Assembly (NCBI GenBank): GCA_032622095.1
Contig: CP136065.1
Span: 208,174,151 to 208,238,150 of the forward strand
Origin: Siphonodentalium dalli
Taxonomy: Eukaryota; Mollusca; Scaphopoda; Gadilida; Siphonodentaliidae
DNA: 64,000 bases
Direction: 5' to 3'
The notes beneath the pieces are model-generated. The model was not told where the DNA came from. It saw only the letters and a program-made list of their open reading frames with translations, and ran no database searches. A program made the position numbers and the translations under genes. Numbering within the stretch: position 1 is the first letter of the stretch; each line of letters starts with the position of its first letter. Positions 22,641-55,408 of this stretch are shown in pieces.

Positions 22641-22645
22641 TATTT

Positions 22646-23520: not shown

Positions 23521-23522
23521 AC

Positions 23523-23760
23523 AGATGAATTGGACTTAAGTCCAAATGAATTGTACTTAAGTCCAAATACCACATAATTGTTAATTCGGCGAGGAATTGG
23601 ACTTAAGTCCAAATAGATGAAAATATCGGTATTTGGACTTAAGTGTAATTCATTTGGACTTAAGTACAATTCGGCGAGGAATTGTACTTATGTGGTATTT
23701 GGACTTAAGTACAATTCGCTATTTGGACTTAAGTCCAAATAATTGGACTTAAGTTCAAAT
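23523..23760. repeat. Second, diverged cluster of the same palindrome
   Basis: About nine copies of TTGGACTTAAGTCCAA or one-sided variants (TTGTACTTAAGTCCAA, TTGGACTTAAGTACAA, TTGGACTTAAGTGTAA) are present, with spacers such as TTCGGCGAGGAA occurring more than once. Many copies have lost exact symmetry by a G-to-T or equivalent change in one half. Confidence 0.85.
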
Positions 23761-23779
23761 CAATCGAAAATGTGAAAAC

Positions 23780-28624: not shown

Positions 28625-29515
28625 CAAACCTGAAACGTTATTTTTTCCCCGATTTTGATGCCAAGTTTGTGCAAAAAATCCCATAATTCTGGGAATTTCA
28701 GTGGTTAAAATAGTAAAAGTTAATCAATGTGCATCATAAATGTTAGTATTCAATGTATATAAGACAGAATAGTAAATTTTATTCAGCAACCACAACTTAT
28801 AAGGTGCAATATTTACCATTTTTCATATTTTGGCCGCCATTTATGCAGCTATTGTGAGCCAAAGTGACAATTTTGATACCATTGAGTCGGAATATTCATA
28901 AGAAATAGAATGCATCACTTCCATTACACAGTCCTGCCAATTTTTTATGAATATGACTAGAATCCCAAATTGTGATTTTTTGGTGAAATGTTATACCACG
29001 TTCTGTAAACTCGATTTTTTGAATGATCGGAAGGGGTGGGGACCCCACTTATGGCATATTTTATTTCCCCGATGGTCTGTTAACATGCCAAATACAAAAT
29101 AAAGTCACAATTCTCAACTAGTCCCAAACAGCAGAAAATTATCTTAAAGATATCAGTAACAAAAACGTAACATTTTCCACTTCCGGTCGCCATTTTGACT
29201 GCCATCTTGGGCGGTGTGTTCCAATTTTTGGCATTAAAATGTGGTGTTATGTCATAGCTTCACAAAAATGTATACTTATGTATACATATGACACGATATT
29301 ATGACTCTAATTGCATCAAATTGCAACAAACTGACTTAACGGAAAATGGCAGCCATATTGGACGCCATCTTGAATTACAAAAAATGCTCAAAGCGGATTT
29401 TAGCGGATTTTGGATATGTTATAGAGGAGATCTTCCTCTTCAAAATGGTATATAAACCAATTTAGTCCGAATTTATTCTAGGTTGACCCTAAAATTTTAG
29501 TTTATCGACCAGACT
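28625..29515. repeat. Right arm of the ~0.86-0.89 kb dispersed inverted repeat
   Basis: Reverse complement of about 21785-22640, for example CCGATTTTGATGCCAAGTTT at the inner end and ATCGACCAGACTATA at the outer end. The arm is moderately diverged from its partner with several indels. Confidence 0.7.
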
Positions 29516-29884
29516 ATATATGGGCAGATAATTGATAGGTGGGCATGTTGAACTGAAAATATATATGCAAGTGCATTCAATTTCGACCTCAATTTCTGAT
29601 TGATATTGTTTTTTTTCAAAATTCGTGTGCAATACGTGAGTTAATAGATATAATCGAAGTCGCTCTAGGACATGACCCGACCGACTAGTTCTCTATCTAG
29701 TCTCTTGTGGCAAAATTATATTTTTATGATCGAAGGGGGGGGGGGGTGACTCGACCAATCGTCACGCTGCATATACCAGACAAACCCTAATGACGTCATA
29801 AAATTCTGGTTCACCGCCCCTCTCCACCCATGAACCGAAGGTCTCCATGACGTTAGGTACCCGTCTATTTGGCAATCATTTTAT
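29516..29884. other. Non-coding gap
   Basis: About 370 bp without a supported feature beyond a poly-G run near 29737-29746. Confidence 0.4.
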
Positions 29885-30945
29885 TATACCCCCCTTTAAA
29901 AAAAAAAAAGGGGGGTATACTGTTTTGCACCTGTCCGTCCGTCCGTCCGTGCGTGCGTCCGTCCGTGCGTGAGTCCGTACGTCCGTCCGATGTCTGTTCG
30001 TGTCATAACATGAACAGTAGTGCTCGGATCTCAATGAAATTAGGTATGGATGTTCACTATTATGAGGACATTAAATAGAGGGTTCCATCGTTTTGTTTGG
30101 ATTTTCCATTCTAGAGTTATTCATCTTTGTTTATCTGGAAATAGTGGCTTTTTGGTCCGTCTGGTGTCTGTTCATGTCGTAACTTCAACAGTTGTGCTGG
30201 GATTTCAACCAAATTTGGTATGGATGTTCACTACTATGAGGGCATTCAATAGAGGGTTCCATCGTTTTGTTCGGATTTTCCATTCTAGAGTTATACATCT
30301 TTGTTCATCTGGAAATGTTGGCTTTTTGGTTCGTCTGGTGTCTGTTCATGTCGTAACTTCGACAGTTGTACTGGGATCTCAATGGGATTTGGTATGGATG
30401 TTCACTACTATGAGGACATTAAAAAGAGGGTTCCATCGTTTTGTTCCGCTTTTCCATTCTAGAGTTATTCATATTTGTTCATCTGGAAATGTTGGCTTTT
30501 TGGTCCGTCTGGTGTCTGTTCATGTCGTAACTTCAACAGTTGTCCTGGGATCTCAATGGAATTTGGTATGGATGTTCACTGCTATGAGGACATTCAATAG
30601 GGGGTTCCATTGTTCTGTTCTGCTTTTCCATTCTAGAGTAATTCATCTTTGTTTATCTGGAAATGTTGGCTGTTTGATCCATCCGATGTCTGTTCAGCTC
30701 ATAACTTGAACAGTAATGCTCGGATCTCAATAAAATTTTGTATGGATGTTCACCACTATGAGGACATTTAATGGCACATTCAAATGTTTGTTTTGGTTTT
30801 TTGTTCTATAGTTATTCATCTTTGTTTATATGAAAATGCTGATTTCTGGGTCCATATGTCTGAGTCTAGCCATCATAAGTTATAGATGTGCCCACACTAG
30901 GCGGTATGCCATGAGGGGGTATGCACCGGACGACAGTCCATCTCT
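29885..30945 (+). mobile_element. Pearl/HINE-like element C with a 174 bp tandem core
   Basis: The left end forms a hairpin, TATACCCCCCTTT, an A run, then GGGGGGTATA. It is followed by CTGTCCGTCCGTCCGTCCGT and then five or so units of exactly 174 bp (TCTGTTCATGTCGTAAC at 30167, 30341, 30515 and a variant at 30689). The right end carries GGGGGTATGCACCGGACGAC. Because 174 is a multiple of three, one plus-strand frame (30050-30709) stays open through the units, but it has no recognisable domain and I do not call it a gene. Confidence 0.6.
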
Positions 30946-33688: not shown

Positions 33689-33722
33689 CTGAAATGTTTT
33701 AACCCTTTACCCAACAGAAGGG

Positions 33723-33803
33723 CCCTGTGCCAATGCATTCTCTTATATATGTGAGTCGACCATAGGTCGACTCGCATATATAAGAGAATGCATTGGCACA
33801 GGG
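33723..33803. repeat. 81 bp near-perfect hairpin
   Basis: CCCTGTGCCAATGCATTCTC at the left is mirrored by GAGAATGCATTGGCACAGGG at the right, continuing inward through TTATATATGTGAGTCGACC and its complement to a centre at about 33763. Arms are 40 bp with one or so mismatches. It lies 35 bp upstream of the HECT acceptor and 64 bp from the edge of the giant palindrome. Confidence 0.85.
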
Positions 33804-34046
33804 TATAACTGTAACCATCACAATGTGGTCAAGGAGCCGGTTCCAATGATATCCATATTTGTATGGTTTGATGATACCGGGCCCGTTTGGTGGCAGTCTA
33901 GACAGTTTGACCTACACTCTCTGCAGTACTACCGTTGGTGTTTGACCTATATTCTCCGCCCACGCATTGCATCATGGTCTATTTGTATGCCGGTTGTGCA
34001 TGTCCGGACATGACCCGTTGGTTATATCCAATGGGATAATGTTAAA

Positions 34047-34262
34047 GTGACACTCGCATTGAAAACTTCAAAAAATTCAAAACTTCAAAAATTTCAAAAA
34101 CTTCAAAAATTTCAAAAATTTCAAAAACTTCAAAAACTTCAAAAATTTCTAAAATTTCAAAAACTTCAAAAATCTCAAAAAATTTCAAAAAAGTTCAAAA
34201 ACTTCAAAATACTCAAAAATTTCAAAAAACTTAAAAGACTTTTCAAAAAGAAACAAAAATGA
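34047..34262 (+). repeat. CTTCAAAAA/TTTCAAAAA low-complexity tract (left copy)
   Basis: An array of 9 bp words. The mirrored copy at 47520-47744 is 9 bp longer and has a few substitutions. This is one of the few places the palindrome arms differ. Confidence 0.8.
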
Positions 34263-34494
34263 AAAACAGAAAAAAATTCATAAATTAAAAAAATATGAAA
34301 AACTTAAAAAACTTCAACTTTTTCTAAAATTCAAAAATAATTTAAAATTAAATTAAAATTAACTGTCTTTTAATATATCTAACCCACTGCCACTTCTAAG
34401 GGTTCCACACTACACCTGAGGGGATATTGAGTGGTCTACACACGTCTCCTAAACCCTAGAATAAGATCCAGCCCATAAGAAACACTGCCTCCTG

Positions 34495-34622
34495 CAATGC
34501 CTGTCATTCGAATCTGACGCAATCACTACTTCTGGCGCAATGCCTGAGTCATTCGAATCTGGCGCAATCCCTACTTCCGGCGCAACGCCTGAGTCATTGG
34601 AATCTGACGCAATCCCTCGTGA
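34495..34622 (+). repeat. Short minisatellite with about 51 bp units
   Basis: Three imperfect units built on GAGTCATTCGAATCTGGCGC and AATCCCTACTTCCGGCGCAA. Mirrored in the right arm at about 47160-47287. Confidence 0.65.
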
Positions 34623-34919
34623 AACCTACCGGCTGACTCCACACCCATCGGCTAAACGTTGTATCACATGCTTATTATTTGATCATATCGTGGAAATTCA
34701 ATGTTTTGTCATCACTCATGAGATATAACCCATATCCACTGAAAAAGGGTGGATATCCTCTATTTATTTATAATTTTTTCTTTGTTATCTTTTTTTTTAT
34801 CCCACTTTTTTATCTACCACATCCTGTTTTTATTCGCTCTTCTTTTTCTTACAACTTCTAATCCCTCATAATCTTCGAATATCCACTTTCATCTCCAAGT
34901 TTTTGAAAAAATTCCTTGT

Positions 34920-35145
34920 TTAGTAGCACCTCCAGATGGGCTCTATAGAATTTGAACGAGGCATCCATCTTGGATATTACTCTTTTTATGACTAAATCCG
35001 TTAGCACGCTCTACAGATGGCATATAGGTAGCACGCTCTACAGATGTCATATAGGCCTCTTCACATCTTGTTTTCCATAATTTATTCATTCCTAATCGCT
35101 CCATTGACTGTAACAAATTAAATTACCCCCTCCCCCTGTATTTAG
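34920..35145 (+). repeat. Decayed fragment of the element-B repeat family
   Basis: CATCTTGGATATTACTCTTT, ATGACTAAATCC, TACAGATGGCATATAG and CATTGACTGTAACAAATTAA follow the same order as the core and tail of element B (4970-8076) with many changes. Mirrored at about 46637-46862. This shows that ordinary dispersed repeats predate the palindrome. Confidence 0.5.
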
Positions 35146-35227
35146 AATACATCCTTGATTATTAATATTTCCTCCTTTCATGGTGTGCATGTTCCTTGGG
35201 ACATCTTTGCTAATGTGAAGCCACACC

Positions 35228-35228
<1 letters not shown>

Positions 35229-35268
<40 letters not shown>
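35229..35268. repeat. (TA)n microsatellite
   Basis: About 19 TA dinucleotides. The mirrored copy at about 46513-46552 has the same length, which is notable for such a mutable tract. Confidence 0.9.
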
Positions 35269-35270
<2 letters not shown>

Positions 35271-36709
35271 ACTTTAAAAGCCCGCGAAAATATTACTCAT
35301 ATTATAGACTTCCCTTTGAAGACCTTTGTATGTGACAATGATCCGTAATATTGTTTCTAAGTGACACTGGCCAGTGAAACTGATACTACGGGTATGAACT
35401 AGCCAACTTCACATCGTAACAATAATAAAAGGGACACTTCATCTATATCAGTCTCAAAACGTGTTGGTACACATCTGTGTGGAAACTAAAACCAATCACT
35501 CTTCGTCCGTCATCCGTACATAATTGTAATATAATTTTCTCAGAAACCACGGGATCCCTTTGGCTGAAATTTGGTCTCAACATGGGATCAGAAATTATCC
35601 ATGGAAGACAACAGTGTCCGTGTGGGGAGAAGCTTCGTAGTGTTTCGCTGTCGCCATGGTGTTTGTTTGGGTATAGGCATGGGTGGTGAGTGTGGTTCTC
35701 ATATGGTCTGAACTAGCCTTTACTGACTGAGGTAATTTAGTGCACATGTCATCACTTCACTGATAACCATTATATGGTCAAATCCCTACACTATCAAACG
35801 CAATGTTTCAATAATGGGTTTTCTTAAAATTTTGACTAAATATTGGTTATATTATACGCATCAGCGATCCTTCTTAATAACGCTCTGTATATTTTCAAAC
35901 GCATTGCACTAAATGGGTTTGGAATAGCCATACAGGAAAGGAGAAACTGAGGTCCTGGGTAGGTCGACTGCATATAGCAGTATATATGGGGTACAGACAT
36001 GGACAGCAATGGGTTCCTCGTGGCTTCTGGTCTACACATGACATATTAAAGTTAACCACACCCATCGGCGCGCCTTTATTGGGCTATGAAGCGCCATACA
36101 GGCTCGAATCATGGCCTTCGCCATGTGTTTCTATTTGAACCCACATTAGTAACTAAATAAAATCTTTCTCTCCAGGTTGTTTCACGCCATAACCTTGATT
36201 TGGAAAGCTTGAAGGGCTAATTAAGCTTCAATTTAAATCCCAACATTTTCTTATTTGAAGAACGTATCTGGTTAAACATGTCCACCATAGTAAGCTCATT
36301 TAATTCAAAGAGCTTCACACATAGTCCCACTAGTAATGATGTGTTGTTATTTACTGCAGAAATGGTCATATAGAATACAATACAACACATTTTGGTCACA
36401 TACCTTAAAGGTGCACGTCACTTTCGCAAGATATCGAACTGACCATGTATAGAGTGGAATGACATGTCGGGTATCAAATGTATAATCAGTTCCAGTATTT
36501 CGTCCATAAGGCAGTTTTGGTTGTAACATCATTGTGTATGACGGTTCATTCATATGATACCTTAGCGGTTGCACACGATACTGTCTGTTGTATTTTATGT
36601 CTTATATCATGTATATTAATTGCTCCATGGATGGTAGGAGTATGGCATTGGTGTCTGGTTCTTCGATGTATTCTAGTCATAGTTCATTCATATTATTACT
36701 CTAAAATCT

Positions 36710-38030
36710 CCATTAAATGGAGAAACTAAAGAGCCCATATTATGTAGACTAGTGTATAAATACTTACTTCATGCATTATTTTTATCAATTATATGTATTA
36801 TAACTCCCATCAAGATAGGCTGTTATACAGAGGAAACAAAGCATGTACCAAGTGACAGTCTGTACCAAGTGACAGTCTCATGTCACGAAAGGCCTACTAT
36901 GTGGACACATTTTCTTATCAAAACGCTCTATTATGTAGGGGGTTATCAACCATTGGTCTGGAAAAGGCATACGAGCGGAAGGCGTGTATACACATTTATT
37001 CGATGTACTCTTTAATCGTCGATTTCTCTTTATTGTCGTTAATTTATAGCATTATTAGTAGGAATCTAAACTCGCCGTTATATTGAGAAAATAATGCGTC
37101 AATACCAGTCAATACTGCTTTATTGGCGGTAAATGAAATTATTGAATCATGTATCGCAGCTAAACAAGCGAGACAACTGATCACAACTGATTACAAAAAT
37201 TAGTAATATTTCTGAAGCCTTGAGTGGGTTGTAATACATAGTGTGAATTTTCATTATTGCTACCATTTAAGGAAACATGCCCCCGATAGGGCTACTATGC
37301 GAACACATGTCTATATTAATTTCACATATTCCTTACCGTTCATTCGTATATACTCCAAGCTCTCTGTTAATACAGAGGCATCAAAACATTGGTCTGGAAG
37401 AGACCTACTATGTGGATGCGTGTATACATATTTACTTGATGTATTCTTTAATCGTTCATTTCTCTTTATTATCGTTCATTTATAGCATTATTAGAAGAAA
37501 TTTAGTCTAAAATCTCCATTACATGGAGACAATAAAGAGCCCATATGGTGTAGACTAATGCATAAATACTTACTTCATGTATTCTTTTCACCAATTATAT
37601 GTATTGTACATCCTATACATTTAGTCTGTTATACAGAGGAAACAAAGCATGTACTACGTGGCAGTTTCATATGACGATAAGACCTACCATGTGAACACAT
37701 GTGCATATTAATTTCACATATTCTTCTCAAAACGCTCTATTTTATACGGGGGGGTATCAAACATTGGTCTGGAAAAGGCATGCTATGTGGACGCGTGTAT
37801 ACATATTGACTTCATATATGCATTCATAGTTCATTTCTCTTAATTGTCGTTCATTTAATAGCATTATTAGTAGAAATATAGTCTAAAACCGTCGGTATAT
37901 GGAGAATATATAGCGTCAATACTGTTTTATTGTTGGTAACTCAAATTATTGCATCATGTATCGCAACTAAACAAGCGAGATAACTCATAAATTCTTAATA
38001 GTTCTGATGTCTATGGCAGTTCACACAGTG
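36710..38030 (+). repeat. Degenerate ~805 bp tandem duplication in the palindrome arm
   Basis: AAAGAGCCCATATTATGTAG at 36729 recurs as AAAGAGCCCATATGGTGTAG at 37533, and CTAAACAAGCGAGACAACTG near 37160 recurs near 37968, an offset of 804-808 bp. A third partial copy lies at 37240-37510. No gene. Mirrored at about 43752-45072. Confidence 0.65.
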
Positions 38031-39339
38031 TATATTTTCATTGTTGTTACCATTTTAGTGCATACATTACTGATTTCTGTGTAAGAACGCCGGTCTCCAT
38101 TGTTGTTATGATTGTGCCTATAACTGTCCATATTCTTAAAGCAAGTACGGTACCTCTATGTGATATGATCTATAAAAATTTCCATTTTCACAGGTAAATC
38201 ACGTATAAACGCTCTTTAATGTATAGTTAAACTGAGTTTTCACATGCAGGGCTATGTCTTTGTGGACTATATACGTGGTATACTTCAGTATATACACGAA
38301 GTGAATGTGTTCTAAGTATGCGTATCTGATTTATGTATACGTCCGTGTTTCTTAAAGCAAATCCAATACATATTAGTGCGTTATATTATGATGTACATTA
38401 AGTGCCCTTTTCACTGTTAAATCAAGTAAAAAGGCCCTCTACTATAGTTAACTATTCAGTTCCACATACGCTATAAGATCTATGGTGGTCCGGTGTGTCT
38501 TATCAATATGCCATTATATGCACGAATGTAATGTGTTCAAATATGTGGGTTATGATGTATACTTTAATGTTAAAGTATATAAGCACTCTTTAAGATATGC
38601 ATATGCAGAATGTTGCCTCTTTACACTGACAGAAAAAAAAGGAATATATAATTTTGAGTACTACTCTTCATAAAACGTTAGAAAACCATAATCTAACAAC
38701 GAATATCGAAGAACAATGTAATTACTTGATAAGCATTGTAAATATTTCGTCTGTTTTAAATAAAATGGAAATATTTCGTCTATTTGAAATACAGTTGGAA
38801 GCAACAATCAAGTATTTAAATGAAATTTGGACCAAAATCTTATAATTTGAGAAAACGTATATAATTTCTATCGAAGTCTTATAATAAAGGAAGGCTTTGT
38901 GCGAATCCATTCGGTCTAATGTGTGAATGTGTTCATCATCGCAAATATAATGATGCAGAAATTAATATTTCCTAGAATAATGTTAACATAGCTTGTATTT
39001 AACCGAAATAATATAGCATTTGAGTTAAAATGTTTCATATTAGGACCATAACGAACCAATGCATAAAAATACAATATTTTGTTTTTCATTCTCGATCAAA
39101 ATAATGCAGGGTTGTCAATTATCAACAAAAAACAAATACTTTGAAACAAAAACGATGACATAAGAAGGAATATCCAAGAGCTAGTGTGAAAATAACCCTC
39201 ACATTTATAAAAAAAAAAACAATAAAATTAAAGTTTTCGAGTAAGTCCTTCAAATTTATTGAATGTTTTCGTCTATGTTGGATCAAATTTGACACAAAAA
39301 TCAATTAGCTCACTAACAGTTCGCGCAATATCTCATATT

Positions 39340-40450
39340 TTGAGAAAACGTTTGCAATTTTAGACAACAATATTGCTAGTGAAGGTGAATATTTCATCCT
39401 GGAACTCATGAAATATGATAAAAATAGATGTAAAGACACTTCACGAGCCCTCATATATTTGAGTTATGAACATAAAGTCATCTCATAGTGCCATTGTACC
39501 CCATAATTTGGTCAGGAGAAATATGTATTTCATATTTGACCCTTCATCTGTGGTAAAAAATGAATTAAGGGACATGGGAGTGGTGTCCCTAGACATTAAC
39601 CTAGAGCATAAATTGACTCAATTATGCAATTTTAGGCAACATTCTTGCCAGAGAAAGTGTATATTTCATGTTGGAACTCATCCAATGTGATAAACATGCA
39701 TCATAAGACACTTAATGAGCTCTGATGACTTTGAGTTATGACAACAACGGCATCTCATACTAGATTGTAAGCCATAATTTGGTCAGGAAAAGTGTAAATT
39801 TCATATTTTATCCTACATGTGTTTTAACAATCAATGTAATTACACCCCATCGGTCGCCTAGACACAGCGTAAATGTTCTCAAGTTTTCAATTGTAGGCCA
39901 CAATGTCGGCAGTGAAGGTAAACATTTCATGTTGGAACCCATGAAATGTGATAAAATGGATAAAAAGACACTTCCTGAGTCCTTATGACTGAGTTATGAA
40001 CATAAAGGGAACTCATAGTGTATTGTAGGTCATAATTTGGTCAGGAAAATTGTAAATTTCATGTCTTAAGCTCCATGTGTTTAAAAAATATATGTAATTA
40101 CAACCATTGGGTCCCTAGAGATCAATCCACAGTCCATATGTAGTCCATATGCAATTTTAGGGAACAGTTTTGCTAGTGAAGGTGAACATTCCATGCTGGA
40201 ACTCATGAAATATGATAAAAATAGATGAAAAGACACTTTCTGAGGCCTTGGTCTGGAGAAATGTGTATTGTATTTTGACCCTTGATGCGTGGTAGCAATC
40301 AATGAAATTACACCCCACGGTATCCTCAGATATGAAGCAACATCATAAATGCACTCAGTTTTGGCAATTTAGACAACATTGTTGATAGGGAAGTTGTACA
40401 TGTCATGTTGGAACTGGTGAAATGTGATAATAATTGATCAAAAGACACTC
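39340..40450 (+). repeat. Degenerate ~265 bp tandem repeat, about four units
   Basis: The phrase ATAATTTGGTCAGGA occurs at 39503, 39774 and 40032, and a fourth, shortened unit follows near 40240. Each unit also has TTTCATGTTGGAACTCAT and AAAAGACACTT. The intervals are 271 and 258 bp. Mirrored at about 41333-42443. Confidence 0.7.
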
Positions 40451-40658
40451 GATGAGCCCTGATGGGTTTCAATTATGGTCATAAAGGCATATGATAGTGT
40501 CATTATACAACGGGGAAATTTGTGAAGCGCTAACAAAGCGTATCTGCACGGTGTTATACGAATCAAAATGATCCTGATATAATAAATGCAATCTAGATCA
40601 TACTCAGTATCTTCGTATCGACTGAATATATCGTTATTCGATGGTGTTCCTGACATAC

Positions 40659-40746
40659 CTCCGTCTTTACTTTTCTTATGCTTTTGTAGATTGTAGTTCG
40701 TCGATAATATCTTTCTGCACAAATGGCACCCGTGTATTGTCTCGAA
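40659..40746 (-). other. Candidate exon with a C2H2-type half finger, left copy
   Basis: The minus strand encodes IHGCHLCRKILSTNYNLQKH followed by KKSKDG and a consensus donor (GGAG then GTATGT). CxxC with a His 12 residues on is the first three ligands of a C2H2 finger, but the fourth His is missing before the donor. A stop codon lies just upstream of the segment, so it could only be used from an acceptor at TTCGAG. It is a weak exon call. The right-arm copy is identical. Confidence 0.3.
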
Positions 40747-40877
40747 TCATGGGAAGAACTATCGTCCTTATACCAGCGAAAAGATGAGCAAATATGGTGT
40801 GGTATTATAAACTCGCCGCGTTCGTACCTCTATTTATCGTTTAGAGTAATTGTTCTTAGATAAAAAAAATAGGCGCG

Positions 40878-40905
40878 GCGGCAGTGGGGATGAGGGGGCC
40901 GCACG
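40878..40905. repeat. 28 bp spacer at the centre of the palindrome
   Basis: GC-rich sequence beginning GCGGCAGTGGGG and ending GCCGCACG. GCGGC (40878-40882) and GCCGC (40898-40902) could pair, so the spacer is itself a small hairpin. It is the only non-symmetric sequence between the arms. Confidence 0.9.
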
Positions 40906-41036
40906 CGCGCCTATTTTTTTTATCTAAGAACAATTACTCTAAACGATAAATAGAGGTACGAACGCGGCGAGTTTATAATACCACACCATATTTGCTCATC
41001 TTTTCGCTGGTATAAGGACGATAGTTCTTCCCATGA

Positions 41037-41124
41037 TTCGAGACAATACACGGGTGCCATTTGTGCAGAAAGATATTATCGACGAACTACAATCTACAAA
41101 AGCATAAGAAAAGTAAAGACGGAG
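41037..41124 (+). other. Candidate exon with a C2H2-type half finger, right copy
   Basis: Exact mirror of 40659-40746, now on the plus strand, ending at the GTATGT donor at 41125. The two copies face away from each other across the palindrome centre. See the left copy for the limits of this call. Confidence 0.3.
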
Positions 41125-44100
41125 GTATGTCAGGAACACCATCGAATAACGATATATTCAGTCGATACGAAGATACTGAGTATGATCTAGATTGCATTTA
41201 TTATATCAGGATCATTTTGATTCGTATAACACCGTGCAGATACGCTTTGTTAGCGCTTCACAAATTTCCCCGTTGTATAATGACACTATCATATGCCTTT
41301 ATGACCATAATTGAAACCCATCAGGGCTCATCGAGTGTCTTTTGATCAATTATTATCACATTTCACCAGTTCCAACATGACATGTACAACTTCCCTATCA
41401 ACAATGTTGTCTAAATTGCCAAAACTGAGTGCATTTATGATGTTGCTTCATATCTGAGGATACCGTGGGGTGTAATTTCATTGATTGCTACCACGCATCA
41501 AGGGTCAAAATACAATACACATTTCTCCAGACCAAGGCCTCAGAAAGTGTCTTTTCATCTATTTTTATCATATTTCATGAGTTCCAGCATGGAATGTTCA
41601 CCTTCACTAGCAAAACTGTTCCCTAAAATTGCATATGGACTACATATGGACTGTGGATTGATCTCTAGGGACCCAATGGTTGTAATTACATATATTTTTT
41701 AAACACATGGAGCTTAAGACATGAAATTTACAATTTTCCTGACCAAATTATGACCTACAATACACTATGAGTTCCCTTTATGTTCATAACTCAGTCATAA
41801 GGACTCAGGAAGTGTCTTTTTATCCATTTTATCACATTTCATGGGTTCCAACATGAAATGTTTACCTTCACTGCCGACATTGTGGCCTACAATTGAAAAC
41901 TTGAGAACATTTACGCTGTGTCTAGGCGACCGATGGGGTGTAATTACATTGATTGTTAAAACACATGTAGGATAAAATATGAAATTTACACTTTTCCTGA
42001 CCAAATTATGGCTTACAATCTAGTATGAGATGCCGTTGTTGTCATAACTCAAAGTCATCAGAGCTCATTAAGTGTCTTATGATGCATGTTTATCACATTG
42101 GATGAGTTCCAACATGAAATATACACTTTCTCTGGCAAGAATGTTGCCTAAAATTGCATAATTGAGTCAATTTATGCTCTAGGTTAATGTCTAGGGACAC
42201 CACTCCCATGTCCCTTAATTCATTTTTTACCACAGATGAAGGGTCAAATATGAAATACATATTTCTCCTGACCAAATTATGGGGTACAATGGCACTATGA
42301 GATGACTTTATGTTCATAACTCAAATATATGAGGGCTCGTGAAGTGTCTTTACATCTATTTTTATCATATTTCATGAGTTCCAGGATGAAATATTCACCT
42401 TCACTAGCAATATTGTTGTCTAAAATTGCAAACGTTTTCTCAAAATATGAGATATTGCGCGAACTGTTAGTGAGCTAATTGATTTTTGTGTCAAATTTGA
42501 TCCAACATAGACGAAAACATTCAATAAATTTGAAGGACTTACTCGAAAACTTTAATTTTATTGTTTTTTTTTTATAAATGTGAGGGTTATTTTCACACTA
42601 GCTCTTGGATATTCCTTCTTATGTCATCGTTTTTGTTTCAAAGTATTTGTTTTTTGTTGATAATTGACAACCCTGCATTATTTTGATCGAGAATGAAAAA
42701 CAAAATATTGTATTTTTATGCATTGGTTCGTTATGGTCCTAATATGAAACATTTTAACTCAAATGCTATATTATTTCGGTTAAATACAAGCTATGTTAAC
42801 ATTATTCTAGGAAATATTAATTTCTGCATCATTATATTTGCGATGATGAACACATTCACACATTAGACCGAATGGATTCGCACAAAGCCTTCCTTTATTA
42901 TAAGACTTCGATAGAAATTATATACGTTTTCTCAAATTATAAGATTTTGGTCCAAATTTCATTTAAATACTTGATTGTTGCTTCCAACTGTATTTCAAAT
43001 AGACGAAATATTTCCATTTTATTTAAAACAGACGAAATATTTACAATGCTTATCAAGTAATTACATTGTTCTTCGATATTCGTTGTTAGATTATGGTTTT
43101 CTAACGTTTTATGAAGAGTAGTACTCAAAATTATATATTCCTTTTTTTTCTGTCAGTGTAAAGAGGCAACATTCTGCATATGCATATCTTAAAGAGTGCT
43201 TATATACTTTAACATTAAAGTATACATCATAACCCACATATTTGAACACATTACATTCGTGCATATAATGGCATATTGATAAGACACACCGGACCACCAT
43301 AGATCTTATAGCGTATGTGGAACTGAATAGTTAACTATAGTAGAGGGCCTTTTTACTTGATTTAACAGTGAAAAGGGCACTTAATGTACATCATAATATA
43401 ACGCACTAATATGTATTGGATTTGCTTTAAGAAACACGGACGTATACATAAATCAGATACGCATACTTAGAACACATTCACTTCGTGTATATACTGAAGT
43501 ATACCACGTATATAGTCCACAAAGACATAGCCCTGCATGTGAAAACTCAGTTTAACTATACATTAAAGAGCGTTTATACGTGATTTACCTGTGAAAATGG
43601 AAATTTTTATAGATCATATCACATAGAGGTACCGTACTTGCTTTAAGAATATGGACAGTTATAGGCACAATCATAACAACAATGGAGACCGGCGTTCTTA
43701 CACAGAAATCAGTAATGTATGCACTAAAATGGTAACAACAATGAAAATATACACTGTGTGAACTGCCATAGACATCAGAACTATTAAGAATTTATGAGTT
43801 ATCTCGCTTGTTTAGTTGCGATACATGATGCAATAATTTGAGTTACCAACAATAAAACAGTATTGACGCTATATATTCTCCATATACCGACGGTTTTAGA
43901 CTATATTTCTACTAATAATGCTATTAAATGAACGACAATTAAGAGAAATGAACTATGAATGCATATATGAAGTCAATATGTATACACGCGTCCACATAGC
44001 ATGCCTTTTCCAGACCAATGTTTGATACCCCCCCGTATAAAATAGAGCGTTTTGAGAAGAATATGTGAAATTAATATGCACATGTGTTCACATGGTAGGT

Positions 44101-46511
44101 CTTATCGTCATATGAAACTGCCACGTAGTACATGCTTTGTTTCCTCTGTATAACAGACTAAATGTATAGGATGTACAATACATATAATTGGTGAAAAGAA
44201 TACATGAAGTAAGTATTTATGCATTAGTCTACACCATATGGGCTCTTTATTGTCTCCATGTAATGGAGATTTTAGACTAAATTTCTTCTAATAATGCTAT
44301 AAATGAACGATAATAAAGAGAAATGAACGATTAAAGAATACATCAAGTAAATATGTATACACGCATCCACATAGTAGGTCTCTTCCAGACCAATGTTTTG
44401 ATGCCTCTGTATTAACAGAGAGCTTGGAGTATATACGAATGAACGGTAAGGAATATGTGAAATTAATATAGACATGTGTTCGCATAGTAGCCCTATCGGG
44501 GGCATGTTTCCTTAAATGGTAGCAATAATGAAAATTCACACTATGTATTACAACCCACTCAAGGCTTCAGAAATATTACTAATTTTTGTAATCAGTTGTG
44601 ATCAGTTGTCTCGCTTGTTTAGCTGCGATACATGATTCAATAATTTCATTTACCGCCAATAAAGCAGTATTGACTGGTATTGACGCATTATTTTCTCAAT
44701 ATAACGGCGAGTTTAGATTCCTACTAATAATGCTATAAATTAACGACAATAAAGAGAAATCGACGATTAAAGAGTACATCGAATAAATGTGTATACACGC
44801 CTTCCGCTCGTATGCCTTTTCCAGACCAATGGTTGATAACCCCCTACATAATAGAGCGTTTTGATAAGAAAATGTGTCCACATAGTAGGCCTTTCGTGAC
44901 ATGAGACTGTCACTTGGTACAGACTGTCACTTGGTACATGCTTTGTTTCCTCTGTATAACAGCCTATCTTGATGGGAGTTATAATACATATAATTGATAA
45001 AAATAATGCATGAAGTAAGTATTTATACACTAGTCTACATAATATGGGCTCTTTAGTTTCTCCATTTAATGGAGATTTTAGAGTAATAATATGAATGAAC
45101 TATGACTAGAATACATCGAAGAACCAGACACCAATGCCATACTCCTACCATCCATGGAGCAATTAATATACATGATATAAGACATAAAATACAACAGACA
45201 GTATCGTGTGCAACCGCTAAGGTATCATATGAATGAACCGTCATACACAATGATGTTACAACCAAAACTGCCTTATGGACGAAATACTGGAACTGATTAT
45301 ACATTTGATACCCGACATGTCATTCCACTCTATACATGGTCAGTTCGATATCTTGCGAAAGTGACGTGCACCTTTAAGGTATGTGACCAAAATGTGTTGT
45401 ATTGTATTCTATATGACCATTTCTGCAGTAAATAACAACACATCATTACTAGTGGGACTATGTGTGAAGCTCTTTGAATTAAATGAGCTTACTATGGTGG
45501 ACATGTTTAACCAGATACGTTCTTCAAATAAGAAAATGTTGGGATTTAAATTGAAGCTTAATTAGCCCTTCAAGCTTTCCAAATCAAGGTTATGGCGTGA
45601 AACAACCTGGAGAGAAAGATTTTATTTAGTTACTAATGTGGGTTCAAATAGAAACACATGGCGAAGGCCATGATTCGAGCCTGTATGGCGCTTCATAGCC
45701 CAATAAAGGCGCGCCGATGGGTGTGGTTAACTTTAATATGTCATGTGTAGACCAGAAGCCACGAGGAACCCATTGCTGTCCATGTCTGTACCCCATATAT
45801 ACTGCTATATGCAGTCGACCTACCCAGGACCTCAGTTTCTCCTTTCCTGTATGGCTATTCCAAACCCATTTAGTGCAATGCGTTTGAAAATATACAGAGC
45901 GTTATTAAGAAGGATCGCTGATGCGTATAATATAACCAATATTTAGTCAAAATTTTAAGAAAACCCATTATTGAAACATTGCGTTTGATAGTGTAGGGAT
46001 TTGACCATATAATGGTTATCAGTGAAGTGATGACATGTGCACTAAATTACCTCAGTCAGTAAAGGCTAGTTCAGACCATATGAGAACCACACTCACCACC
46101 CATGCCTATACCCAAACAAACACCATGGCGACAGCGAAACACTACGAAGCTTCTCCCCACACGGACACTGTTGTCTTCCATGGATAATTTCTGATCCCAT
46201 GTTGAGACCAAATTTCAGCCAAAGGGATCCCGTGGTTTCTGAGAAAATTATATTACAATTATGTACGGATGACGGACGAAGAGTGATTGGTTTTAGTTTC
46301 CACACAGATGTGTACCAACACGTTTTGAGACTGATATAGATGAAGTGTCCCTTTTATTATTGTTACGATGTGAAGTTGGCTAGTTCATACCCGTAGTATC
46401 AGTTTCACTGGCCAGTGTCACTTAGAAACAATATTACGGATCATTGTCACATACAAAGGTCTTCAAAGGGAAGTCTATAATATGAGTAATATTTTCGCGG
46501 GCTTTTAAAGT

Positions 46512-46554
<43 letters not shown>

Positions 46555-47825
46555 GGTGTGGCTTCACATTAGCAAAGATGTCCCAAGGAACATGCACACC
46601 ATGAAAGGAGGAAATATTAATAATCAAGGATGTATTCTAAATACAGGGGGAGGGGGTAATTTAATTTGTTACAGTCAATGGAGCGATTAGGAATGAATAA
46701 ATTATGGAAAACAAGATGTGAAGAGGCCTATATGACATCTGTAGAGCGTGCTACCTATATGCCATCTGTAGAGCGTGCTAACGGATTTAGTCATAAAAAG
46801 AGTAATATCCAAGATGGATGCCTCGTTCAAATTCTATAGAGCCCATCTGGAGGTGCTACTAAACAAGGAATTTTTTCAAAAACTTGGAGATGAAAGTGGA
46901 TATTCGAAGATTATGAGGGATTAGAAGTTGTAAGAAAAAGAAGAGCGAATAAAAACAGGATGTGGTAGATAAAAAAGTGGGATAAAAAAAAAGATAACAA
47001 AGAAAAAATTATAAATAAATAGAGGATATCCACCCTTTTTCAGTGGATATGGGTTATATCTCATGAGTGATGACAAAACATTGAATTTCCACGATATGAT
47101 CAAATAATAAGCATGTGATACAACGTTTAGCCGATGGGTGTGGAGTCAGCCGGTAGGTTTCACGAGGGATTGCGTCAGATTCCAATGACTCAGGCGTTGC
47201 GCCGGAAGTAGGGATTGCGCCAGATTCGAATGACTCAGGCATTGCGCCAGAAGTAGTGATTGCGTCAGATTCGAATGACAGGCATTGCAGGAGGCAGTGT
47301 TTCTTATGGGCTGGATCTTATTCTAGGGTTTAGGAGACGTGTGTAGACGACTCAATATCCCCTCAGGTGTAGTGTGGAACCCTTAGAAGTGGCAGTGGGT
47401 TAGATATATTAAAAGACAGTTAATTTTAATTTAATTTTAAATTATTTTTGAATTTTAGAAAAAGTTGAAGTTTTTTAAGTTTTTCATATTTTTTTAATTT
47501 ATGAATTTTTTTCTGTTTTTCATTTTTGTTTCTTTTTGAAAAGTTTTTTAAGTTTTTTGAAATTTTTGAGTATTTTGAAGTTTTTGAACTTTTTTGAAAT
47601 TTTTTGAGATTTTTGAAATTTTTGAAGTTTTAGAAATTTTTGAAGTTTTTGAAATTTTTGAAGTTTTTGAAATTTTTGAAATTTTTGAAGTTTTTGAAAT
47701 TTTTGAAGTTTTGAATTTTTTGAAGTTTTCAATGCGAGTGTCACTTTAACATTATCCCATTGGATATAACCAACGGGTCATGTCCGGACATGCACAACCG
47801 GCATACAAATAGACCATGATGCAAT

Positions 47826-47980
47826 GAAATTTGCTGTGTACATTCACATGTAGATGGCAATCCTTTACATTGGAGCATTGCTATGACGTATATACAGTTG
47901 CACATGGACTATATTGTTTAAATTGGAGTGGCAAAAATCACTCATTCCCATCTACATGTCAATGTGCACAGAAAAGTATA
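47826..47980. mobile_element. 155 bp MITE-like insertion present in one palindrome arm only
   Basis: Its ends are inverted repeats, CTGTGTACATTCACATGTAG and CTACATGTCAATGTGCACAG with ATGG/CCAT next to them. The left palindrome arm has only two bases (CG) at the matching point. An inverted second copy lies at 48377-48530 outside the palindrome. The phrase GACATGTAGATGGGAATGAG links it to the element-B core. Confidence 0.75.
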
Positions 47981-48075
47981 TGGGCGGAGAATATAGGTCA
48001 AACACCAACGGTAGTACTGCAGAGAATGTAGGTCAAACTGTCTAGACTGCCACCAAACGGGCCCGGTATCATCAA

Positions 48076-48376
48076 TGGTTCTATTGAGACAGACCAAAGA
48101 TATTTTAGGCTGTTGAAGCTTTATTTGGCCGGTTTGTTGGGTAAAGGGTTAAGCCAATATTAAAACCACATATAGCAGTGAGATGTTGTGTCACATCACA
48201 TTATGAATATAAGGTGGAATTATTATTTGTAAAAGACAATTTGGTACACATCCCTCCCATTTGATGAAAATCATGTAAAATCTTCAAAAGAATGTGTTAT
48301 TAGCACGGTACTGGAATTTCAAATTCACAATTAAAAATGTTATTCTGTCAGTTAAAAACCCAGAATCACAACACAC
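48076..48376. other. Gap beyond the palindrome edge
   Basis: No gene seen. GGTAAAGGGTTAAG near 48140-48153 is the inverse of AACCCTTTACC at about 33700-33712 outside the other arm, so weak symmetry may continue past the strict boundary. Confidence 0.4.
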
Positions 48377-48530
48377 TACTTTTCTGTGCACATTGACATG
48401 TAGATGGGAATGAGTGATTTTTGCCACTCCAATTTAAACAATATAGTCCATGTGCAACTGTATATACGTCATAGCAATGCTCCAATGTAAAGGATTGCCA
48501 TCTACATGTGAATGTACACAGCAAATTTCA
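48377..48530. mobile_element. Second copy of the 155 bp MITE-like element, opposite orientation
   Basis: Reverse complement of 47826-47980 over nearly its whole length, starting CTACTTTTCTGTGCACATTG and ending AATGTACACAGCAAATTTCA. Confidence 0.75.
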
Positions 48531-48573
48531 TGATGTACAATGGCAATAGCTTATATTGACTATGTCAATTTAA

Positions 48574-49013
48574 AGGGGCATTCCGCACTGGGAGGGGTAA
48601 ATATGGGATATATAGCATTATATACCATTGGAAATGTCTTCAAATGAAAACTACACATAAACCTACATCTTTATTGTGTGAAATATACCATGATCTATAA
48701 CCGCAACAAAAGTTATCAAACTACAAAGAATTATCTTTCTGCCATTGTTGATAAGCACGTGATTTATTAATACAGTGCGAAACGCTCTTTATTAGCTTCG
48801 CAATACATAATATATAAGCACTAGCACGAAACACTCTTTATGATCCCACATTCTATTAGAGCTTATCTGGACGGTTCCACCGTATAATTTTTATATGTTC
48901 TGAGGTTGGTTATTTTACAGAACATGGACACGTGAAGCATATTTTCTTAATATTTTTAGCCACTTAACCGTTCCAAAGGAGTTCATTTTTTGTGTTGAGT
49001 GTGGAATGCCCCT
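48574..49013. mobile_element. TTAA-flanked MITE 1 (440 bp)
   Basis: Termini AGGGGCATTCCGCACT and AGTGTGGAATGCCCCT are inverted repeats bounded by TTAA on both sides (48570-48573, 49014-49017). A TTAA duplication is the hallmark of piggyBac-type insertion. No coding sequence. Confidence 0.75.
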
Positions 49014-49132
49014 TTAAGCTAATAAAATGGAGACCATCAAGAATATATTTCAATGATGAAATTCACAGTAGTCCGTTAATATCCTATTTTGGCCACATAA
49101 TTTAAAAATTTCATGAAGTGGTTTCTACATAC

Positions 49133-49252
49133 CTCTCTTTAGTCACTCTCTCCAAGTCGATTTCACCACAACCTGAGGCATGTGATGCCAAAATATTTGT
49201 AGGATAATCATCCCCACATACTGGGCAGGCTGCTAATACTTCTATGGTGTTT
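49133..49252 (-). CDS. UBZ-like zinc-finger exon
   Basis: A 120 bp exon lies between an acceptor (TTGAATATAG, ending at 49253) and a consensus donor (AAAGAGAG then GTATGT at 49133/49132). It encodes VLAACPVCGDDYPTNILASH followed by ASGCGEIDLERVTKE. The CPxC-(x11)-H-(x4)-C spacing matches Rad18/UBZ-type ubiquitin-binding fingers. In molluscs such fingers often precede HECT domains in G2E3-like ligases (from memory), and HECT sequence lies on the same strand 15 kb away at 33218-33688. If they are one gene, the giant palindrome is in its intron. Confidence 0.65.
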
Positions 49253-49326
49253 CTATATTCAATGAATAAAACATTTCCAACCAAATTGTATGGTCTAAAT
49301 ACTACACGTAAATATAAATTATTTAA

Positions 49327-49795
49327 AGGTACTCAACCCGTAAAGAGGGTCCCCATCTCAACAGATTCCAACAACAACAATCCGATCAGAGGGTCCTATA
49401 TTACTATTTCTTTGGCTTTGGGGGTAAAAAATATTTGATTCGAGTCGAGGAACCCATCAAACAAAGCTCAGAGTTATTAGATATTGATTTTTCAAATTTG
49501 TTATGTTCTCGAGATGAGTACTAATAACTGCCGTAATCTGCTCTGGATGTGTACTCCAAATCTATTCAAACAGACAAGGATGAATAACTCTAAAATCAAG
49601 TGGTAATTTTAACGCAATTTTGACTGAGTTCTGGGCCAGATAGTATTCCCGATAATGAAAAATAATAGATTTCTAAAATCGATATCTAACAAATCTGAGC
49701 TTTGATGGGTGACTTCCTCGACTCGAATCAAATATTTTTGACCCCCGAAGCCATTGAAATAGTAATTGAGAGGAGTTTTATCGGGTTGAGTACCT
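49327..49795. mobile_element. TTAA-flanked MITE 2 (469 bp, long foldback)
   Basis: AGGTACTCAACCCG at the left is mirrored by CGGGTTGAGTACCT at the right, with TTAA on both outer sides (49323-49326, 49796-49799). Symmetry extends inward (GATTCGAGTCGAGGA and TCCTCGACTCGAATC), so most of the element can fold on itself. No coding sequence. Confidence 0.78.
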
Positions 49796-49799
49796 TTAA

Positions 49800-50049
49800 A
49801 TATAATTATGTATATATAACATCATAAAAGAATTGAATTTGTACACGTGAATCATTGTCAATTAGTTTAACTTAGTTTAAACACAATTTATTTGCTCGGA
49901 TTTCATGACATTTTCAGCAGCTAAGGCTGTATCATGTCGACATAATCAGTGGAGGAAAGAATTAATGACAATATAGGCTAGCTCAAATTGATGGGATTAG
50001 ATTCAGAATTTTGATATATTTGACAGAAAGAATCTACTAATATGAAAGT
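49800..50049. other. Non-coding gap
   Basis: No supported feature. Confidence 0.4.
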
Positions 50050-50372
50050 GCCAATGGCACTGGCTCAACTTGATGTTCTCATTGGCTCATTGCATTAGCA
50101 AGTTTCGAGAACATCTGTTCATAAATGCAAGCTGTAGGGTGTGCCTAAGAAATTCAAGATGGCTGCCATGGCTGTCATTTTGGATTTCGAAATGGACTCA
50201 AAATAGGACATTCTCATCTACTCATGGTACTAAGTAATCCTAGCAAGTTTCAAGAAAATCTGTTCATAAATATGAACTGTAGGGTATGCCGAAGCCAAAA
50301 GTTGATGCCGGAAGACGGGCGGACGCCAACTGACGGTTATAGCTCATCTTGACTTTGTCAAGTTGAGCTAAA
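50050..50372 (-). mobile_element. Short Pearl/HINE-like copy, inverted orientation
   Basis: Ends in the hairpin AGCTCATCTTGACTTTGTCA and AGTTGAGCTA (50341-50370), the same type of end as element B at 4976, read on the other strand and followed by an A run. Two core units are recognisable (AAATCTGTTCATAAATATGAAC; TTCTCATCTACTCATGGTAC). Confidence 0.55.
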
Positions 50373-52009
50373 AAAAAAAAAAAGATTCATAAACAACTGA
50401 GAAAAACAAAATTGTGTCAACAATTAAAAATAGTATAAGAGAAGGATTGGCTCCATGAGAAGGCGAAGCCTGAACTGTGTTACAGAGACCCACTGCCATA
50501 ACCACACGAAAAAACTTTGATACAAGAAAACCATAGTCAGAAATGGTTACGCACTCCAGATCATATTATTAATACGATATACTATAGCGAATGTAATCAC
50601 CAATCAATAAAGTATATATACCTGATGTAAATTGTAATTCAAAAACATTTTCAGAGGTGTCTATTAAAAAAGTTTGATAGCATTTATTAGAGGCATCTAT
50701 AAGTATTTGGAATCTGTTCACCTAATTGCATATTAATGATGCTATGATACGCGCGGTGTGATATGAGTATTTATAATAAATACATGTTTATGTTTAAATA
50801 CCGATATATTGCTGTTGAATATGAAGTGACAATATGGTGTCTACATATATACTCGTATTGCAATTGTAATTAAAAACTTTAATGTTAAATTTTAATGTTC
50901 CTAATATCGTCATAATCGAGATAGTTATGTATCCAGTTATGAGTCCACGTGGTAGACAATTGATCATAGTTCTGTCGGATACATGAGGTGGGATGTGGCC
51001 AAACAATGTGTAATATGTATTATTTATGTAGAAACAATGTCCACGTTGCGTTAGCTGAACAATTGTCATTGAATGTCATGGAAGTCACTCTGACTGCACA
51101 CATAAAATACCTAGTGTACAGGAAGAGGAATCTTGCGCTAAGATGAGATATGATACGCTGAAATTCTATAGTACCCCTGTAATGTTTAAAGCAGGTGAAC
51201 AAGTTTAGCAGACTATTCCGAGTGTATACATGTATAATTGATATTACAAAATACAGCATAAAAACATTCCAGGCATGCAGCTAAACATAGGATAAAGTTT
51301 AGCTTTTTGCCATATTTGTTACCCACCACTCCAAATGTCAAAAATTGGTTCTGTTTTTCAAATTCTTTTCCATTTTTGTAGCATGAACAAACTTTTTCAG
51401 AGTAAATCCCATTTTAAAATGTTCAAAAGCTAGTTGAATGTTGTTTTAACAATATTTTTGTGCATTTTAATTCCCATGGACGCGCGTAAAAATACTGGGT
51501 TTATCTCAGATTGTCTAAATGTAGGTATTAAAAAGCTAAATGCCCACATTTATCATCCAACCATCATGAAATTATCCATAGCCATCAAGGAGGTCAACGT
51601 TGGCTAGTAGTACTAATATAAATGATTATCTCATGCGATTATATGAATCTGTCCTCATGAACGATTTCATGGATGTTACTCTGACATCATGTTAGTTGAA
51701 ATAGTGACATAATCCATGAACTTGACCTGATATTTTAAATGATTCAGACGTGTGTGTGACCACCCACTTCAACCCCTTAATATCAACAGATCTGTAATCA
51801 TGATCATGTTTAATTGTCAGTATTTCACCAATTTTAATTTGGGGTAAATACAGATCGGGACTTACAACTTACAACGACTGGTAAATTTACCTGCTAGTCT
51901 TATAATGAAACATTGGCATGCTTTGTCATGGAAGTTAACGTTGTCATCAGCAGGCATCAAGTACATTTATAACAAGACATAATTTGTTTTTATCACAGCG
52001 ATCCTCACT
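50373..52009. other. Non-coding gap
   Basis: About 1.6 kb of AT-rich sequence with short open frames (such as those at 50794-51069 and 51020-51259) that have no recognised domain, splice support or coding-like composition. Confidence 0.4.
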
Positions 52010-52262
52010 ATCTTCTGATGAAAGACAATGTGCCCAAGAAGTTAAAAATGGCTGTCAGCATCATTTTGGATTTCGGAGAATCGGAACGGACTCAAAATAG
52101 GACGTTCTCATCTACTCATGGTACTAAGTAATCCTGGCAAGTTTCGAGACAATCTGTTAATAAATGCAACATGTAGGGTGTGCCAAAGCCAAAGGTTGAC
52201 ACCGCACGGACAGATGCCAACTGACAGCTATAGCTCATCTTCAATTTGTCAAGTTGAGCTAA
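52010..52262 (-). mobile_element. Second short Pearl/HINE-like copy, inverted orientation
   Basis: Ends in AGCTCATCTTCAATTTGTCA and AGTTGAGCTA (52232-52261). The preceding core phrases GACGTTCTCATCTACTCATGG and GGCAAGTTTCGAGACAATCT match the copy at 50050-50372. Confidence 0.55.
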
Positions 52263-54191
52263 AATGGCCATATATGTAATTTATTGTGATGCAGTAACTA
52301 TATTTTTAAATGTTTAGTACCATATTTGAGAAAATGGGAAATTCATTAACATTTAAGTGGAACAAAGCCTGATTATTAGCGGCTGGTCTCTATCAATGTC
52401 CCATCCAAACATTGAACAGACCTGCTGATTGAGTTTGTGTCTACAATTTCCGTTCCGATTTTTTTAAATTTACATTTGGGAAGAAAAAAATTTGTATTAC
52501 ATGTAGCTGTTTTACGGATCCGCCGACCCTAAAATTCGTCACAGTGTGCATTGTTGCAACTTCAAGCTTTTCAAATATTATTGAATGTAATATTAGGTCA
52601 ATTTCAAACTCAATAAAGTATTTTCATCTCCTAACAATAGAAAACTTGTATGGTAGGTATGTAAACCCATGCTAACTTCGGTTTATATGGCATTCATTCA
52701 ATGATAGCCCTCTCATTCTTTCATGGCAACATTGATTTCGGCCATATCCACCATAGCCTCCTACCAAAATTTTGCTGAAACAGAAACAAAATAATTCTCG
52801 AGCGAATTTAATTTTTTATTTCTTTACCTCCTCCGACCCTACGTTCTGAACAAAATTATCCGTAAAACAACTAATAAAAAAAACTGCCTTGTGACAGTCG
52901 GAAACGCAATAAAACGGAATCCAGGTATTAATTAAAATGCAATGTAGAGACAAATAAACGTATAATTTGCTGGGTGAGGTCCTAGTGATCAAATTTGCCA
53001 CTTTTCTGAGGCAACCGATAAATTACCCAAATTATTGATGATTATATTATCAATGTGAATGTGTCTCAACTGTTTTGATGGTCACATGATAACATTGACA
53101 TTCAGGTCATTTTTCAATAACAAGACCATGCATTTAATGATTATGACACATTACTGGTATTGGCTTTGAACCAAAGCTGACATGTTATGTTATGTCTAAT
53201 TTGCAAAATGATGCCTATAAAATTAATCCACATGTACTTGAAAAAAGTTTGGTGAACTGAAAATGGCCCGAATGACAACCACGTTGAGCTAACATTTGGC
53301 TGATGTGTAAAAACATGGAAAAAACATACAGCAGGAAACTTTTGGCTTCAACAGCAAGTTTTATTGTTGATTTAAGCTTCTTACAATTTTATGACCTCCT
53401 CAATTTTGAAATGACCTGCCCACTTCAGTTTGTGTAGGTCATTGTGTACCATTTAAAAAACTATAATGAGGCTTGAGTGGAACGGACTGCTTTGGACCTA
53501 GTCATGAACCACTCTGATATGCGGGTTATAAGCTACCCATCAGAGTCTTGATTTGTCATCTATTAAAAGCACAGTACATTGGCTTTAGTTATAAATGATA
53601 AAATGCATATCTAGTGTGTATTACCTTGGTATCATCTTTACGCCAATCTATTCTTGATATAAATATCCTCGTGGTTGATTAGGTGACAGCAATTATAACG
53701 ATCACATTAAAAGATGTTTTTTAAGTGAAACTCATGAAAACAATTTTTTCTATTTTAATCCAGTCCGCCGTATTGTACAGTTGTGATATGGGGTCGATGT
53801 TCGTGTCACATGCACGCCTGAGTGATTCAACATGTGAGATCAATCGTGGATTATAGTACGGAGTCACTTATTTCGGACAACAGCATGAGAAAAAAAACCT
53901 TTACAATTGCTGCGATAATCCGCTTACCTGCCAATCATTCGTTGACCTAATATGGGGTTAGAGATCAAGCACGTTGACTTCCTGATTACGATGATTTGTG
54001 TTTTACAAAACGAGAGATAATAGAGAGTTTGCGATTTCAAACCGGTATGGGTACGGGTACAGGTAGCCACCCGTACCGGTACACGTTTTGTAATCACAAA
54101 CTTTTTATGGGTAGAATTCATCACATCGACTGGTAATGTATGGAGAGCTAATTGCAACAAAAAATATATTATAATATAGATAGATTGTTAT
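52263..54191. other. Non-coding gap
   Basis: About 1.9 kb. No supported gene, RNA or element. A GGGTACGGGTACAGGTAGCC-type short repeat with partial symmetry occurs at about 54044-54084. Confidence 0.4.
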
Positions 54192-54760
54192 CAGGGATGT
54201 GGCTAGAGGGTCTCAGCTGGGGGGGGGGGGGGTGACACAGATATAAATTTCCAACTGGGGTTGTTTCGGTTTTCAAATGACTATATTCCATAGGAATCCT
54301 ACAAGGCGGGTGAACTTCTATCAAAATATGTGTACAGTACATAGTAGTAAGACTATTATGTGGACAGTTGAACTGAAGTCTGCATATAAATGTGGCCTAT
54401 TATTTGTGATAGAATAGTCTACACTTAACACAGACTACACAGTACAAGTGCCAAAGAAGTAACAGTTGAATATTCCTCCAAAATTCTTACTCATGTAATA
54501 TACTAATATCACAGCATACATTGGAATTATTATTGCAAATGGTCATTATGTGCTTGAGTATAATGCTTGATTTTAAATTCTGGTCTCATTTCAAACTCTC
54601 ACATATATGTAATATAGGCTATTATAGAGCCATGCGTATGTGTGAAGTTTCAATTTGACTGAACTATGACTATACAGTTCAACTATCCATATAATAGTCT
54701 TACTACTAGATGTACTGTACACATATTTTGATAGAAGTTCACCCACCTTGTAGGATTCCT
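54192..54760. mobile_element. hAT-like MITE left end with an internal ~84 bp inverted repeat
   Basis: CAGGGATGTGGCTAGAGGG at 54192 is the same terminus as the MITE at 31775. Inside, AGGAATCCTACAAGGCGGGT through GACAGTTGAACTG (54292-54375) is mirrored at 54675-54760 (CAGTTCAACTATCC through GTAGGATTCCT) with a few mismatches, around a 300 bp loop. The matching right terminus was not found, so the copy may be truncated. Confidence 0.6.
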
Positions 54761-54954
54761 TTCACCATCAATTATTATTTGCAGAGTTGTTACTTGTAGT
54801 TTTGTCTATAAATGGGAACTCAATATTATAAAAGTTATTCATTTAATTATTAAAAAAGAAAGGTGCATGAACACTGAAACATAACATGAATATAAACTTA
54901 TAAAGCTCACATATCAACCTGATAAAAATAAAACAAAATCTGAATCTGAATTAA

Positions 54955-55404: not shown

Positions 55405-55408
55405 TTAA

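Follow-up and report, generated by a model that had tools for sequence, protein, structure and literature searches.

How could some 14 kb of scaphopod DNA come to consist almost entirely of two inverted copies of one sequence, and is such a structure a mobile element, an ordinary duplication or a product of assembly? In the window analysed here (the whole 64,000-nucleotide stretch from Siphonodentalium dalli), positions 33868-48075 form a near-perfect palindrome of 14208 bp, in which a GC-rich centre of 28 bp (40878..40905) lies between two inverted arms. An earlier note, made from the letters of the window, had described a palindrome of about 14.2 kb with a centre of this length, and both features are present in the given sequence, as judged by self-BLAST and a global alignment of the arms. 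These two methods place the left arm at 33868..40877 (plus strand, 7010 bp, starting TTGATGATACCGGGCCCG) and the right arm at 40906..48075 (minus strand, 7170 bp). By self-BLAST, 33965-47826 matches its own inverse at 99.66 % across 13875 columns, and the mirror resumes beyond an insert carried by one arm, where 33868-33962 pairs with 48075-47981 at 98.9 % across 95 bp. An inner stem of 5 bp (GCGGC/GCCGC) with a 15-nt loop is predicted within the centre, and the central 92 bases are predicted to fold as one hairpin of -39.3 kcal/mol, where shuffled versions average -10.1. Chance cannot produce such a palindrome.

The two arms are not equally alike along their length. Aligned globally, they give 7009 aligned columns with 7 mismatched letters, comprising five isolated substitutions (left-arm positions 33917, 34155, 34164, 34237 and 34433) and two letters at the junction of the insert, and gap columns fall at the insert (152), at 34128 (9) and in a homopolymer at 39209 (1). 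All five isolated substitutions, together with the 9-bp indel and the 154-bp one-arm insert, belong to the outer 566 bases (33868..34433 on the plus strand in the left arm, a candidate older TIR), whereas the inner 6443 aligned bases are free of substitutions and differ by one homopolymer indel only. The latter is the run of 11 versus 10 letters recorded in the earlier note, which had also correctly listed the 9-bp indel and an insertion of about 155 bp in one arm (here, 154 bp in the right arm replacing CG); a near-identical inner zone exists as it had proposed, yet this extends over 6443 aligned bases without substitution and not over roughly 5.5 kb. The concentration of substitutions in the outer zone (5/566 versus 0/6443; Fisher p = 3.4e-6, counting the five isolated substitutions and leaving out the two insert-junction letters, with which the value would be 2.2e-8, a figure not used here) is not due to chance, and bears out the suggestion that identity rises toward the centre. 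Three of the five (34155, 34164 and 34237) sit in a subterminal 9-bp tandem repeat array (34062..34317, plus strand, with a mirror array at 47465-47729), which may change fast and which also contains the 9-bp arm indel, so that outside the array the gradient rests on two substitutions and the insert.

The extra DNA of the right arm (47824..47978, minus strand) is one copy of a 155-bp repeat, MITE-like and imperfectly inverted at its ends, that is absent from the left arm; the right flank carries a second copy of 155 bp (48377-48531), identical and in inverted orientation. A part of this repeat, about 28-34 bp in length, matches a 164-bp tandem array at 5056-7986 at 84-97 %. A clean insertion into the right arm was considered and rejected, given that no target duplication can be defined (the left arm has CG where the right arm has TA plus the insert), so that either arm may show the ancestral state here.

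At its outer edges the palindrome is bordered flush by TGGT on both sides (33864..33867 and 48076..48079, both on the plus strand), a presumed target-site duplication. A flush direct repeat of at least 4 bp arises by chance in 0.79 % of random position pairs (200,000 pairs drawn from 1-33000 and 49001-56000), and a 4-bp repeat on its own is weak evidence. An exact 18-bp inverted pair starting TTAA also straddles the palindrome (33699-33716 and 48135-48152), and at up to three mismatches these two matches are the only ones in the window, where 0.14 would be expected. The inverted match between the flanks scores 34.6 bits, and none of 300 random flank pairs gave one as strong (95th percentile 23.8). 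The description of the flanks in the earlier note as unlike consequently needs amending, in that they have in common an inverted match of 26 bp at 88 %, including 18 exact bases, while being otherwise unmirrored. The left flanking piece (33699..33867, 169 bp) has a TTAA + CCCTTTACCCAACA end and an 81-bp hairpin at 33723-33803, and the right piece (48076..48152, 77 bp) ends GGGTAAAGGG + TTAA; when the palindrome and one TGGT are removed, the two join as a 242-bp unit with TTAA-CCCTTTACCC ends, terminal inverted repeats and the 81-bp hairpin inside it. The ends of piggyBac elements are TTAA-flanked short inverted repeats starting CC, and the TTAA-ended short inverted repeats of the joined unit likewise start CC, as in a piggyBac-like MITE; its CCC terminus we take to be piggyBac-like. 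Kolobok, the other TTAA superfamily named in the available part of PMC9587614, has 5'-RR...YY-3' ends, which do not fit this unit. No second or intact copy of the 242-bp unit was found elsewhere in the window.

Since the flanks fit together as one older element, with a short direct repeat at the borders, the palindrome appears to be the inserted unit, and most likely a discrete unit split an older MITE-like element. It is highly improbable that the mobile unit is instead the whole TTAA-to-TTAA interval 33699-48152, that is, a piggyBac-like element with a TTAA target duplication and the palindrome as its interior. The exact 18-bp inverted ends starting TTAA speak for such a unit, but the flush TGGT would then be a product of chance (0.0079), and the outer pieces are unequal (169 vs 77 bp), one of them having a hairpin of its own. 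An ordinary inverted segmental duplication, held identical by arm-to-arm conversion and involving no transposon, is also very unlikely. Conversion or cruciform-driven repair would indeed give central identity and outer divergence, and an inverted repeat of Caenorhabditis elegans with 2207-bp arms and a 126-bp spacer has arms of 99.7 % identity, according to the available text of PMC1803023; yet a segmental duplication predicts neither the flush TGGT nor flanks that fit as one TTAA-ended unit. The same two observations favour a discrete mobile element over the generic long inverted duplication of the earlier note, whose further proposals (foldback priming or template switching, conversion or two-step growth, and a real structure) do fit the data.

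Judged from sequence, arms and edges together are better read as a mobile element of the foldback (long-TIR) structural class, an assignment based on one copy in one assembled sequence: long inverted arms take up 7010 + 7170 bp of the 14208 bp, tandem repeats occur inside these arms, and the flush TGGT, a presumed target-site duplication, is seen at the outer edges. Our favoured explanation, with a probability of roughly 0.7, is that the locus holds a non-autonomous foldback-type DNA transposon of about 14.2 kb, inserted at TGGT in an older, 242-bp, TTAA-ended MITE-like element. Any further movement would require transposase supplied from elsewhere. No named superfamily was matched by the length of the target-site duplication and the ends, and we consider it doubtful, if conceivable, that the palindrome belongs to a transposon family whose superfamily is undescribed or unassigned, one with a 4-bp duplication and TTGATGATACC ends, which moves or survives in the form of a 14-kb palindrome, almost perfect and with just 28 bp at its centre. 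Were this so, the inner arms would keep being rewritten, each from the other, and the locus would offer a natural system for studying the tolerance of an animal genome for long perfect palindromes; it might also give rise to very long hairpin RNA.

For the foldback transposon that we favour, we infer both insertion, from the edges, and growth in two steps, from the identity gradient; with a diverged outer zone and an identical inner one, a two-step history is the best account of the arms. The original terminal inverted repeats of the element would have been at least 566 bp long and already starting to diverge. An internal break would then have been repaired by copying from one end, beyond the TIR and into the interior, and foldback priming or template switching at the GC-rich centre during this copying would have put 6.4 kb of interior in both arms (TIR-F-F'-TIR). 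Later arm-to-arm conversion via cruciforms may help to hold the inner part identical. Continuous conversion that began at the centre would leave a gradient of just this kind and would here be indistinguishable from growth in two steps.

The gradient would be explained equally well by an assembly or read fold, the main rival of a foldback transposon, albeit an unlikely one. Under such a scenario the real element would not be palindromic inside and would end in ordinary TIRs, these being at least about 566 bp long, and a foldback chimera at the centre, joined via the TIR to the right flank, would have created an artificial mirror. Foldback artefacts of long-read sequencing can come close to a perfect palindrome and can leave assembly graphs tangled (PMC12870357, available text), and the inner arms differ only by the length of one homopolymer, possibly a sequencing error. 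However, to get from the artefact into the true right flank, with the one-arm insert and all five differences, the assembler would have had to pass through a 566-bp TIR that had diverged, and a plain foldback would have mirrored the flanks too, which are unmirrored except for the 26-bp pair.

The contents of the arms provide a relative chronology for the foldback element. Old, diverged tandem repeats are found at 36696..38058 (plus strand; a duplication with pieces 74-80 % alike) and at 39353..40508 (plus strand; offset about 272 bp, pieces mostly 72-78 % alike, with one 89-bp piece 91 % alike), both mirrored in the right arm. In all, the tandem repeats within the TIRs comprise 9-bp and 45-bp arrays and diverged repeats offset by about 272 and 806 bp. 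Given that these tandem copies are mostly 72-80 % alike while the inner arms are identical, the doubling or homogenising of the arms is much younger than what they contain.

The arm stretches tested yielded no convincing protein domain. A Pfam scan (E up to 0.5) of 34 of the 37 left-arm open stretches of at least 55 aa, the other three of which read the 9-bp array, returned 11 families with one member each, among which Myb_CC_LHEQLE had the lowest E (0.0025) and zf-C2H2 stood at 0.0092, and gave no match to a transposase. A stretch near the centre (40441-40746, minus strand) shows a zinc-finger-like pattern by eye, and no candidate for it was found in the protein collection. The window contains no tRNA and no Rfam family at the gathering threshold. 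Comparisons with viral contigs (terminal 22-mer) and with phage records (left arm), either of which may omit records from the genome of the window itself, gave no match. Within the window, the exact terminal 18-mer is found only at the two ends of the palindrome. There is no support for reading each arm as a complete element in its own right: the best match in the window to the terminal 24-mer, besides the two ends, has 8 mismatches, and a 16-mer at 28194 that matches with 3 mismatches is not part of the palindrome and by eye extends no further.

The window as a whole has the look of animal DNA, and the longest ORF listed for it is 413 aa. An ORF of Merlin-type (ISXO2) transposase at 20193-21287 has 7 matches, among them sea urchin, and its best named match, a protein of the scallop Ylistrum balloti, shows 47 % over 59 % of the query. 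For a TatD-like ORF there is a single match, at 28 %, from another scallop, Mizuhopecten yessoensis. Taken by themselves, these matches make a mollusc the likely source. Retroelement-like ORFs occupy 8054-14066 on the minus strand, where a PNMA/gag-like protein, with 23.1 bits, falls short of the Pfam cut-off of 25, and where the ORF at 13308-14066 (minus strand) shows closely spaced Cys and His by eye and has no Pfam match. At 29981-30838 a tandem repeat of 174 bp occurs in about five copies, and a 219-aa ORF with no Pfam domain runs through the array (30050-30709). Tandem-copy clusters of the palindromic motif TTGGACTTAAGTCCAA are present at 22638-23762, and an inverted pair of about 0.9 kb (21788-22635 vs 28649-29523, 77.5 % identity) perhaps represents the ends or copies of another old element. 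From 56747 to the end of the window at 64000 extends a 165-bp satellite array (6.3 + 37.7 copies by TRF), the orientation of which switches head-on near 57780-57797 to form a second palindrome of 2.1 kb at 96 % identity.

The stability of inverted repeats falls with longer and more similar arms and with a shorter spacer, according to the available text of PMC1803023. A 14-kb case with transposon-like edges offers a concrete example in which to ask whether such structures are made and kept by TIR extension through repair copying, by conversion or by both, and the combination of outer divergence, inner identity and a one-arm insert makes this question testable.

Mammalian sex-chromosome palindromes often carry genes, whereas no convincing protein domain was found here in the stretches tested and the edges are transposon-like. 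The likeness lies in an arm identity of more than 99 %, which in the mammalian case is kept by conversion (PMC8981503, available part). Similarly, the long inverted repeat of C. elegans at F44E5.4/F44E5.5 has near-identical long arms and a short spacer, for which conversion has been proposed, and differs in containing genes and in its dimensions (2207-bp arms, 126-bp spacer); the paper on it (PMC1803023), in the part of its text available, has no word built on the stem 'transpos'. Among the matches listed in our searches of open-licence titles and abstract starts (covering palindromes, long TIRs, foldback elements and bivalve genomes), there was no mollusc element of this kind, and a literature text search with satellite and terminus words returned unrelated titles.

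Closer parallels exist among the foldback elements of Drosophila. Tetris of D. virilis, assigned to Mutator by its authors, is likewise non-autonomous, with internal tandem repeats in its TIRs and no conserved ORFs; it differs in having target-site duplications of 8-10 bp, a middle domain of variable size and repeat units of about 220 bp (PMC4079207, available text). The nearest described object that we found, compared by description and not by sequence, would be copy 112 of Galileo in D. willistoni, a foldback-like member of the P superfamily of 9021 bp with TIRs of 4246 and 4680 bp, which is nearly all TIR, has no transposase segment, contains tandem repeats within its TIRs and is bordered by identical target-site duplications (PMC4168063, available part). 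The Galileo copy has duplications of 7-8 bp and, by subtraction (9021-4246-4680), about 95 bp between its arms, in contrast to the 4-bp duplication, arms of about 7 kb, 28-bp centre and substitution-free inner arms seen here. Galileo copies with extended TIRs and tandem repeats and without transposase are on record (PMC4168063), and the TIR1-F1-F1-TIR2 scheme, in which one TIR is repaired from the other, has been put forward for this element (PMC3573991); these precedents, as given in the available parts of both papers, lend support to the two-step growth proposed above. With only 4 bp matching flush at its edges, the palindrome has neither the 7-8 bp duplication of Galileo and the P superfamily nor the 8-10 bp duplication of Mutator-like elements of the Tetris type, and because of its longer arms, smaller centre and 4-bp rather than 7-10-bp duplication we do not file it under Galileo or as Mutator-type. 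Most likely, it is a very long example of the known foldback type and not a new kind of thing.
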